Assembly (NCBI GenBank): GCA_001829625.1
Contig: MIBW01000081.1
Span: forward strand, 177 to 57,237
Reading direction: 5' to 3'
Origin: Sulfurimonas sp. GWF2_37_8
GTDB taxonomy: Bacteria > Campylobacterota > Campylobacteria > Campylobacterales > Sulfurimonadaceae
DNA: 57,061 bases
Shown one piece after another: positions 27,124 to 40,293 of this stretch (positions are counted from its first letter, which is position 1; the number at the start of each line of letters is the position of its first letter). Both the position numbers and the translations under genes were made by a program. Under the pieces are notes generated by a model. The model did not search any database. It was not told where the DNA came from and saw nothing but the letters and a program-made list of their open reading frames with translations.

Positions 27124-28200
27124 ATGCTCACATCCAAACCTTCACTTCTTGATTTCACACAAAAAGAGCTCATGCTGCTAATAAAACCATCTTTTAGAGC
27201 AAAACAAATTTTTGGCTGGCTTTATCACCAGTACGCTGAAAAATTTGATGATATGTTAAACATACCAAAATCTCTCAAAGAAGAGCTCGAACAAAAATAT
27301 GTAGTCAATCCCATGAAAATCATCCGTAAAGAAATATCTGAAGATGGAACAATAAAATATCTTTTTGAACTTCAAGATGGAAAAACAGTAGAAGCTGTTT
27401 GGCTCAAGATGAAAGATGAACTTCGTGATGAAAATGATGTAATCACTCAAGAAGCAAAATACACTATCTGCGTTTCTACTCAAGTAGGGTGTAAAGTAGG
27501 GTGTACCTTTTGTCTGACAGCTAAAGGCGGTTTTACAAGGGATTTGACTGCAGGTGAGATAGTCGCTCAAGTTGTAAATCTCAAACGCGACAACAACCAC
27601 AAGCACAATCGTAAAATTAACATCGTTTATATGGGAATGGGTGAACCTCTTGATAACTTTGATAACCTCGCTCATGCCATAGAAATATTTCAAGAAAATG
27701 AAGGCCTTGCAATATCAGGTAAACGCCAAACCGTTTCTACAAGCGGGCTTAGCAACAAAATTGATAAACTTGGTGCCATGGACTTAGGTGTTCATATTGC
27801 CATTTCACTTCATGCCGTTGACGATACATTGCGCACAGAGCTTATTCCCATGAATAAGGCGCACAATATCAACTCTATCATAGAAGCCGTCAAACGCTTT
27901 CCAATTGATACGAGAAAAAGGGTAATGTTTGAGTATCTTGTTATTAAAGATAAAAACGATGATTTGGGTTCAGCAAAAAAACTTGTCAAACTTCTCAGTG
28001 ACATAAAAGCGAAAGTTAATCTTATCTATTTCAATCCATACCCGGGCACAGAGTACAAACGACCAAAAAAAGAGGATATGATTGCGTTTCAAGAATATTT
28101 GGTCAAACATGGTTTACTTTGTACAATACGCGACTCAAAAGGTATTGATATAAGTGCTGCATGTGGACAATTAAAAGAAAAAACAGAAAGTGAGCGATAA
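27124..28200 (+). CDS. rlmN: 23S rRNA (adenine2503-C2)-methyltransferase RlmN
   Basis: A 358-residue radical SAM enzyme. The iron-sulfur site is CKVGCTFC within STQVGCKVGC, followed by the GEIVAQV stretch; MGMGEPLDNF and the C-terminal GIDISAACGQL with the methyl-carrying cysteine are diagnostic. It methylates A2503 of 23S rRNA (and A37 of some tRNAs in E. coli). The start is 4 bp after the previous gene with GAGGTACTTT upstream. Its last base is the first base of the next small ORF (TAATG). Confidence 0.95.
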   Translation: MLTSKPSLLDFTQKELMLLIKPSFRAKQIFGWLYHQYAEKFDDMLNIPKSLKEELEQKYVVNPMKIIRKEISEDGTIKYLFELQDGKTVEAVWLKMKDELRDENDVITQEAKYTICVSTQVGCKVGCTFCLTAKGGFTRDLTAGEIVAQVVNLKRDNNHKHNRKINIVYMGMGEPLDNFDNLAHAIEIFQENEGLAISGKRQTVSTSGLSNKIDKLGAMDLGVHIAISLHAVDDTLRTELIPMNKAHNINSIIEAVKRFPIDTRKRVMFEYLVIKDKNDDLGSAKKLVKLLSDIKAKVNLIYFNPYPGTEYKRPKKEDMIAFQEYLVKHGLLCTIRDSKGIDISAACGQLKEKTESER

Positions 28201-28292
28201 TGGATGCTGTAGAGATATTTCAATTGGTTTTTTTAGTAGTTGTATTTGCAGTCGGAATTGTTGGTTTTATCATAGCGGCAACAAAACCATAA
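28200..28292 (+). CDS. 30-residue single-span membrane micro-protein coupled to rlmN
   Basis: ATG at 28200-28202 overlaps the rlmN stop as TAATG, and TAA is at 28290-28292. The product has an acidic start (MDAVEIF), one hydrophobic helix of about 20 residues (QLVFLVVVFAVGIVGFIIAA) and a basic end (TKP), so it is a likely small inner-membrane protein with N-out/C-in charge balance. The coupling and the clean amphipathic layout argue that it is real. I do not recognise a family. A stem-loop follows at 28299. Confidence 0.6.
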   Translation: MDAVEIFQLVFLVVVFAVGIVGFIIAATKP

Positions 28293-28298
28293 TAAAGC

Positions 28299-28329
28299 TA
28301 GGCGACCAACACACCAGGGAGGTCGTCTA
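28299..28329 (+). other. Stem-loop after the micro-protein gene
   Basis: TAGGCGACC (28299-28307) can pair with GGTCGTCTA (28321-28329), a 9-bp stem with one G-U pair and a 13-nt loop (AACACACCAGGGA). It is GC-rich in an AT-rich gap. No T-run follows, so it is not a classical terminator; it may protect the mRNA end or be part of a small RNA. Confidence 0.4.
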
Positions 28330-28443
28330 TGAATGTAATCTTACCTTACTTACCTTATAAAAATATAATCTTTCTACCTTCTCTTTTTAAACTTAAATAA
28401 AATATAACTTGTAATTTATTTTACAAAATTTCTCAATATATGA

Positions 28444-28476
28444 AGTATTCACACATTGTTCTAAAGTGTGAATACT
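28444..28476. repeat. Perfect 11-bp inverted repeat carrying two DnaA-box-like sites
   Basis: AGTATTCACAC (28444-28454) is repeated inverted as GTGTGAATACT (28466-28476) around an 11-bp spacer. Each arm contains TATTCACA with the TTCAC core described for epsilonproteobacterial DnaA boxes. The centre-to-centre distance is 22 bp, two helical turns, so it could equally be an operator for a dimeric regulator. Confidence 0.6.
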
Positions 28477-28572
28477 ATCACATTCAAGTATAAGTAAATT
28501 TCAAGATTTACCTTTTATTTAAGAAACATTTTATATAAAAATAAACTGAATGTGAAATGTAGCAATATTTCT

Positions 28573-28600
28573 AAATCCCTAAAAATAGGGGTTTTATTGT
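28573..28600 (+). terminator. Rho-independent terminator in the rlmN-rluA gap
   Basis: AAATCCCTA / TAGGGGTTT form a 9-bp stem with one G-T pair around an AAAA loop, followed by TATTGTTTTT. On the plus strand it would end transcripts from the hisF-rlmN operon about 280 bp after the last ORF. Confidence 0.6.
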
Positions 28601-28748
28601 TTTTATCACTCAAACTTATTCATATAATAAACACATTTATAAGTTTTCTTCAGTTATTCACATTGTCTCAAACTTATTCATCTTTTGCTCTGTTTATTGT
28701 TAAAAAATAACTTATACTTTTTATGGCATTTTACAAAACTTTGTTAAC

Positions 28749-29666
28749 TTATTTTATAGAATTTAAAGTTTCTAAACAGAGTTTCTCAAAATCTATATTA
28801 CTTTTAAAATGATATTGTTTTGAATAAAGTTCAAATTCCAATTCATTTGCATGAAGCAGCAATCTATCTGCACCAGATTTTTGAAATCTTTCTTTAGCAC
28901 TTAACTCTCTATTAAGAAATCTTACAATGTCTTCTTCACTTTGTCCATAAATTGGATCACCAACTATAGGATGTTTCACGTGAAACAAATGCACACGTAT
29001 TTGATGCTGTCTTCCTGTATAGGGTGCACACTCCAAAAGAGTCATATCTAACTCAGGAAAATACTTTAAAGATTTAAAATGCGTTTTTGATTCTTTACCT
29101 TTGTCATCCACTTTCACAACCATTCTAACAATAGCACTTTCATCCTCAGCTCTTAAAAGTTTTGCTTCAACAGTGAGTTCTTCCATAAACTCTCCATGTA
29201 CCAAAGCCAAATACTTTTTTTTCATATCTCTCTCTTGAAACATCATTTTAATATCTTTTTCACTCTCTTTGTTTCTAGCACATAAAACAAGTCCGCTTGT
29301 TTCTTGATCTATTCTATGTGCTATATTTGCATCTTTACCGAACTGAGATTTTAATTCATCTATAAGAGAGTAGGCTGTTTTCCTGTTTTGTGGATGAATC
29401 AACATACCACTAGGTTTATCAAAAAGAACAAATTCATCATGAACGGCATGAGGAATCAAGCCTTGAGTAAGAGGTTCAAAATATATAAATTCAAACTCTC
29501 CTTCTACTTCAGTGGAAGCTTTTGTGATAGGAACACCTTCTATCAGAAGCCGTCCTTTTGATATCATTCTTTGTGACTCTTTTGGCGTATAACCTAACTC
29601 TTTTATAAGATACAAGAACGCACGTTGCTTTATTGGAGCATACATTTTTTTTATAACAAATGGCAA
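28749..29666 (-). CDS. RluA-family 23S rRNA/tRNA pseudouridine synthase
   Basis: 305 residues. An S4-like RNA-binding part (ESQRMISKGRLLIEGVPI) is followed by the RluA catalytic domain with HRIDQETSGLVLCAR (catalytic Asp) and GRQHQIRVHLFHVKHPIVGDPIYG. It isomerises uridines in structured RNA. The choice between RluC, RluD and a paralogue cannot be made here. It is monocistronic and divergent from purB. Two start codons are close together (29666 and MYAPIK at 29645); the first is kept. Confidence 0.88.
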   Translation of the reverse strand: MPFVIKKMYAPIKQRAFLYLIKELGYTPKESQRMISKGRLLIEGVPITKASTEVEGEFEFIYFEPLTQGLIPHAVHDEFVLFDKPSGMLIHPQNRKTAYSLIDELKSQFGKDANIAHRIDQETSGLVLCARNKESEKDIKMMFQERDMKKKYLALVHGEFMEELTVEAKLLRAEDESAIVRMVVKVDDKGKESKTHFKSLKYFPELDMTLLECAPYTGRQHQIRVHLFHVKHPIVGDPIYGQSEEDIVRFLNRELSAKERFQKSGADRLLLHANELEFELYSKQYHFKSNIDFEKLCLETLNSIK

Positions 29667-35172: not shown

Positions 35173-35290
35173 AAATAGACTCTATTCACATAAATCACAT
35201 TAAGCTATTCACATTATTTTAACCATATTTTATGTATTTTACTGATACTATTCACATATAAATAACTCATTAGGCAATAACTGTGAATAT
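35173..35290. other. oriC1: DnaA-box cluster upstream of dnaA
   Basis: Three direct copies of CTATTCACA (35182-35190, 35205-35213, 35248-35256) and one inverted copy, TGTGAATAT (35282-35290), that covers the dnaA GTG start. Spacings of 23 and 43 bp are near two and four helical turns. Epsilonproteobacterial DnaA boxes share the TTCAC core (established). The last box on the start codon suggests autoregulation of dnaA as well as origin function. Confidence 0.75.
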
Positions 35291-36590: not shown

Positions 36591-36769
36591 AAATTATAAA
36601 AATATTTAAAAAAAAGATATAATCATAAAAGTGAATAGATGTGAATGAGTTATACATATTTAGAATATGCTCATAACACTTAAAATAGGGCTTATAGGTT
36701 GATTTTCACTTAATCACAGACCCCTACTACTACATACTAAAAATTATATAAATTAAATAGGAAATTCAA
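36591..36769. other. oriC2: AT-rich unwinding region and DnaA boxes between dnaA and dnaN
   Basis: Directly after dnaA comes a nearly pure AT run (about 36587-36630), then AGTGAATAG (36630-36638), TGTGAATGA (36640-36648) and a weaker ATTTTCACT (36702-36710). The two strong boxes are inverted relative to those in oriC1 and only 10 bp apart. A second AT-rich run is at 36738-36758. The layout matches the bipartite oriC known in Helicobacter, where unwinding takes place between dnaA and dnaN. Confidence 0.7.

Positions 36770-37923: not shown

Positions 37924-40293
<2,370 letters not shown>

Follow-up and report, generated by a model that had tools for sequence, protein, structure and literature searches.

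The gap between rlmN and a rluD-like gene in Sulfurimonas sp. GWF2_37_8 holds a conserved locus of the Sulfurimonadaceae, with the geometry of DnaA boxes, in the origin region of the chromosome. It was studied within a window of 57,061 nucleotides, which belongs to a 1.9 Mb assembly as one of its 101 contigs. Its standing as a real DnaA-type locus is supported by its conservation, the fixed spacing of its sites, the rarity of such boxes elsewhere and its relocation as a unit between genera, and the sequence suggests that the cluster did not arise by chance but probably serves the origin machinery as an outlying component. The explanation that we favour, with a probability only slightly above one half (0.52), is that the rlmN-rluD gap is an accessory, displaced DnaA-assembly locus of the origin region and not the site at which unwinding occurs.

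Layout, rarity and conservation of the box triad

The features of the locus and of its surroundings, with two reference regions nearer to dnaA, are as follows.

28300..28328, no strand: module A, a hairpin (GACC-AACACACCAGGGA-GGTC) that adjoins the triad and is conserved in its own right
28445..28453, plus strand: DnaA-box-like site 1, GTATTCACA, which forms the left arm of an inverted pair with site 2; core TATTCACA in 57/60 Sulfurimonas loci
28467..28475, minus strand: DnaA-box-like site 2, GTATTCACA, right arm, at an offset of 21 bp; core TATTCACA in 47/60 loci
28519..28550, no strand: TTAAG..TTTTATATAAA..CTGAA, an AT-rich dyad conserved between the second and third boxes and possibly a site for a second protein
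28573..28594, plus strand: intrinsic-terminator-like hairpin between the convergent genes, its CCC..GGG arms recurrent in the alignment
28654..28662, plus strand: DnaA-box-like site 3, TTATTCACA, present as such in 52/60 loci
28972..28987, no strand: perfect parS-like 16-mer TGTTTCACGTGAAACA, within the rluD-like gene
35182..35290, no strand: ruvC-dnaA box cluster (oriC1 position), for reference, with three copies of CTATTCACA and one of ATATTCACA
36640..36732, no strand: dnaA-dnaN region (oriC2 position), for reference, with TCATTCACA and the DnaA-trio-like CTACTACTA at 36724-36732

The gap lies 6.6 kb from dnaA and is bounded by the 3' ends of the two flanking genes, which converge, so that neither needs a promoter within it. 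The initial annotation had described a 456-bp gap after rlmN; in fact rlmN ends at 28200 and a possible 30-codon reading frame (28201-28293) comes first, leaving a gap proper of 455 bp (28294-28748). This small frame may encode a membrane protein, look-alikes of which (..VGVxGFIxAATK..) occupy the same place in several relatives.

Every site listed in that annotation is present where it was placed, although only three of them are retained as DnaA-box-like. Sites 1 and 2 are enclosed by a perfect 11-bp inverted repeat (28444-28476), and box 3 follows about 180 bp beyond the inverted TATTCACA pair, giving a triad of orientations +, - and + over a span of 218 bp. Two near matches, TTATTCATA at 28616-28624 and TTATTCATC at 28674-28682, were rejected as boxes since their TTCAT breaks the TTCAC core and they are not conserved in the alignment. 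The conserved unit is also longer than was first proposed, extending from 28300 to 28663.

Could such a cluster arise by chance in AT-rich DNA? Within the window TATTCACA occurs nine times, with three copies in the gap, four at ruvC-dnaA and two elsewhere, whereas a first-order Markov model of the gap predicts 0.04 copies there and never produced three or more in 20,000 runs. The control density was taken not from the organism's own genome but from 360 kb (18 x 20 kb) of the relative G061, which we take to be S. denitrificans. These stretches contain 11 copies of TATTCACA and no 240-bp segment with two or more, so that the equal density elsewhere that would have made the cluster unremarkable was not seen. 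The inverted TATTCACA pair occurs once in the organism's own assembly, and exact matches to the pair with its spacer among named records are mostly Sulfurimonas metagenome assemblies. The model, the control sampling and the conservation in aligned loci thus all place the cluster beyond chance.

Conservation of the gap in relatives, which had been put forward as a check, is borne out by a blastn match to its DNA in 93/100 genomes of the same genus. From these 93, 60 loci, mainly the better-scoring ones, were aligned; as the loci were found by similarity, the conservation described for them is conditional on a match. Gene order is rlmN, element, rluD in all 55 of the 60 loci for which both flanking genes were found, and the columns of the boxes are 98% identical compared with 64% for other columns (57 sequences, with L010, L052 and L054 omitted). 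Boxes 2 and 3 stand 173-182 bp apart in 51/60 loci. Of the nine exceptions, three (L010, L052 and L054) come from cut or masked sequence and a fourth (L009) apparently from a site wrongly chosen by the script; the spacing truly differs in L006, L023, L024, L025 and L059. Of the seven genomes that gave no blastn match, G018 has a contig break about 100 bp from rluD but still shows box 3, the best rluD matches in G006 and G024 reach just 32% and 30%, so that the gap cannot be judged in them, and the other four (G034, G035, G066 and G077) are assemblies of at most 76% completeness.

Two conserved modules can be distinguished in the alignment. Module A is the hairpin, and module B comprises the inverted pair, the dyad, the terminator-like hairpin and box 3. 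Between module A and the pair there are anything from 78 to 280 positions in the 60 loci, while the distance from box 2 to box 3 is nearly fixed, which marks module B as a rigid unit and module A as separate from it. The dyad TTAAG..TTTTATATAAA..CTGAA is matched by pattern in 61/73 sequences from several genera. In G061 box 2 is degenerate (CTGTTCACA).

It is very unlikely that the triad is the operator of another regulator that shares the TATTCACA word with DnaA by coincidence. Such a regulator could account for the likewise conserved 13-bp pair spacer CATTGTTCTAAnn and dyad TTTAAG..TATATAAA, which DnaA alone leaves unexplained. Against it, these genomes also use TATTCACA as their box at oriC1, site 3 stands by itself and lacks symmetry, and the two flanking genes both end at the gap and so require no promoter there.

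Position in the origin region of the family and the phylum

The triad has changed its place within the family while keeping its form. In the sister genus g5 it lies just behind ruvC, close to dnaA, and 7/9 genomes (G442, G396, G467, G310, G468, G421 and G271) retain a pair offset of 20-21 bp with box 3 some 173-183 bp further on; the exceptions are G391, whose locus L141 has hairpin A but no adjoining boxes, and G229, which is cut by a contig end. In genera g2, g4 and g7 all or some of the boxes are found next to rluD or within the rlmN-rluD gap, with the pair degenerate or incomplete in exact-core terms in the four g4 genomes. No boxes flank rluD in g6, where module A stands alone and far away, and the g3 genome has neither boxes nor module A beside its rluD. 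Overall, box 2 is followed by box 3 after 165 to 190 nucleotides in 27/52 genomes of the family as against 3/345 outside it.

Outside the family an inverted TATTCACA pair was found in 33 genomes, 30 of which had a locus to examine. Where the offset is 20-22 bp, 21 of the 22 loci are at dnaA or ruvC, compared with one of eight at other offsets, which makes the pair a typical feature of the phylum's origin region at ruvC-dnaA. The ruvC-dnaA boxes of the window (35182-35290) consist of three direct copies and one inverted at 33 bp; a 20-22 bp inverted pair is absent there and present 7 kb away. As to ancestry, the locus has the appearance of an oriC1-type pair of boxes that has moved away from ruvC-dnaA.

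Compared with the Campylobacterota oriC1, the box cluster at ruvC-dnaA (PMC5043019), the locus is alike in its box core, its 20-22 bp inverted pair and its placement in the origin region, directly behind ruvC in the case of g5. It differs in lying 7-14 kb from dnaA, in the near-fixed distance of its third box and in its dyad core, and the Sulfurimonas species keeps a separate ruvC-dnaA cluster as well. As a candidate origin sub-region of this phylum it has the cluster of TTCAC-core boxes, with three conserved sites, but is found at neither ruvC-dnaA nor dnaA-dnaN, save for its position behind ruvC in g5, and has no unwinding element with a DnaA-trio. The distance from module A to dnaA was measured in 20/22 genomes. 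In 13 of them both lie on one contig, 7.0-13.1 kb apart, and in the other seven the distance is 7.5-13.8 kb on the assumption of a circular record; G082 has the element in the opposite orientation with respect to dnaA.

The DnaA-trio is an unwinding motif, and a triple trio-like run is located at 36724-36732, between dnaA and dnaN. A triple run also occurs just behind dnaA in 11 of 12 dnaA regions of relatives, the twelfth being cut there, whereas the 60 element sequences contain no triple trio and a double one in four cases. With the trio sitting at dnaA-dnaN, the triad was rejected as the site of first unwinding. This agrees with the cumulative skew minimum of the window at 37,941, between dnaN and gyrB, and with unwinding in vitro in the dnaA-dnaN region of all three species studied by Jaworski et al., including S. 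denitrificans (PMC5043019). The local GC-skew minimum of G061 near its origin is ambiguous, at -16 kb, so that skew does not settle the origin in that genome. The dnaA-dnaN gap of the window (36640-36732), with its TCATTCACA box and CTACTACTA run, looks like the real unwinding region.

A further feature of the neighbourhood is the parS-like 16-mer at 28972-28987. A parS-like site with at most two mismatches is present in 59/60 loci, 366-900 bp from module A, and in 0/18 of the distant 20-kb stretches sampled from G061. Such proximity would suit a centromere accessory, in which DnaA or some other protein would join ParB on the neighbouring parS and so link the start of replication with segregation. 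This is nevertheless distinctly unlikely: in g5 parS remains near rluD while the triad, close to dnaA, is about 2-3 kb from it; in g6 parS is at rluD where boxes are absent; and as parS lies within rluD itself the association may be inherited synteny. A larger proposal, to which we give a low but not negligible probability, would have the Sulfurimonadaceae possess a third, detached origin sub-region, made up of the triad together with a dyad core particular to it, moved as a unit and usually located at the parS centromere, where it would couple DnaA assembly to segregation. If true, this would to our knowledge be the first dedicated DnaA-control locus beyond the immediate neighbourhood of dnaA in the Campylobacterota.

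Putative DnaA binding and candidate functions

The DnaA encoded in the window is 82% identical to that of G061 and nearly identical to it at the C-terminal end. According to PMC5043019, Campylobacterota DnaA boxes have a TTCAC core and the footprinted consensus of S. denitrificans is HHATTCACA. The TTATTCACA site fits this consensus and GTATTCACA departs from it at position 1; boxes 1 and 3 of G061 both fit.

The initial annotation held that no comparable locus had been described for this group, a statement that has to be made with care, as Jaworski et al. (2016) predicted an extra 'oriC3' in S. denitrificans (PMC5043019). Like the present locus, oriC3 is an additional origin-like region in the same genus, and the two may be identical: among 13 listed gaps near the origin of G061, compiled from a crude ORF call and without the ruvC-dnaA gap, the rlmN-rluD gap is the richest in near-box sites, with five within one mismatch. 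Provided that G061 is S. denitrificans, this gap would fall at about 2,188,100-2,188,480 of its record. What sets oriC3 apart is that it is reported to have shown no DnaA binding in EMSA. If oriC3 is the rlmN-rluD locus, the negative gel shift is surprising in view of the consensus fit of boxes 1 and 3; the result still stands, and the conservation of the locus calls for this single experiment to be repeated.

How might the locus work? We infer from the sequence that DnaA binds at these sites, and the steps that would follow are correspondingly conditional. Two DnaA molecules may sit head-to-head on the inverted pair, two helical turns apart, and the AT-rich spacer of about 180 bp, nearly constant in length, would draw box 3 into the same complex, perhaps with a bending protein recruited by the dyad. 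Because the locus would be replicated within seconds of initiation and usually adjoins parS, the complex could either keep DnaA near the new origins, so damping re-initiation, or reach the dnaA-dnaN unwinding site via looping.

Possible precedents are the DARS and datA loci of E. coli; a locus of this kind would change the nucleotide state of DnaA by bringing it together with a bending protein at a small number of boxes. DARS promotes the release of ADP from DnaA, and datA, with an IHF site in addition to its boxes, stimulates ATP hydrolysis. In favour of such a counterpart, the locus has three boxes, two of them forming an inverted pair, and a spacer of fixed length; it lies between convergent genes, and its place with respect to the origin is conserved. 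The loci of E. coli do not code for proteins and keep their chromosomal position (PMC5742627, PMC4585315). With DARS1 and DARS2 it shares three DnaA boxes, an inverted pair and a non-coding nature, and with datA a small number of boxes in an intergenic place behind genes. However, in DARS the core box I is opposite to boxes II and III with a characteristic DARS1/2 spacing, DARS1 measuring 101 bp (PMC5742627), whereas in this triad it is box 2 that points the other way and the boxes extend over 218 bp. The chromosomal place also differs from that of DARS1 and DARS2, and is much closer to the origin than that of datA, the locus lying 0.7-14 kb from dnaA and not far out on a chromosome arm. A DARS- or datA-like function is therefore unlikely, and of the options raised initially, which included a reactivation site, an outlying part of the origin fits best.

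Passive titration, in which the boxes would do no more than sequester DnaA at an early stage of the cycle, is given as little weight as the centromere accessory. In E. coli, boxes have been reported to be enriched near oriC, with titration as their proposed role (PMC12371093), but three boxes offer little capacity, and titration alone has no need of a 21 bp inverted pair or of a further box at a constant distance of 180 bp.

A displaced DnaA-assembly locus, the preferred explanation, would have a wider bearing. As far as we know, there is no settled account of how the Campylobacterota, including Helicobacter and Campylobacter, restrict initiation to one round per cycle, and searches of the open-access PMC literature brought up no datA- or DARS-like locus of this phylum. 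A family-wide locus with defined sites opens this control to footprinting and deletion in harmless, free-living Sulfurimonas.

The inverted repeat and the neighbouring hairpin

An inverted repeat next to a terminator-like hairpin could also represent the stem of a small structured RNA. This is the least probable of the explanations weighed here, even with the hairpin located downstream and the neighbouring module A covarying. Pairing in the repeat is confined to an 8-bp core, with positions outside it at about the level of shuffles (59 loci without N), and RNAalifold on the plus strand returned the core of the inverted repeat and nothing else; as pairing stops at the core and no covarying stem is formed by the box repeat, an RNA stem was rejected. 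No Rfam family reached its threshold in a search of 28100-28900, which gave four sub-threshold matches, none credible. A 6S RNA was likewise dismissed, as that of C. jejuni and H. pylori is upstream of purD (PMC3847290).

Module A behaves differently. It has compensatory changes in five of eight pairs, with 18 cells against 5.8 in shuffles (21 sequences from five genera). Since only the core of the box repeat pairs and module A covaries, the boxes have the character of protein sites, and module A that of a hairpin structured as RNA or as DNA.

Module A (28300-28345; also L194, L195, L200, L143, L144 and L138-L142) is specific to the family, with an almost invariant loop. A leader reading frame behind it, with an ATG after GGAGG, was considered and discarded, as many relatives have ATGTAA or have lost the ATG. 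On the minus strand a -10-like TANNATT run precedes module A in most genera, and in g6 module A occurs without DnaA boxes (L154:7162-7184) at the start of a minus-strand ORF of 282 aa, the product of which looks MtfA-like. This last position suggests that module A may be a promoter with a leader hairpin.
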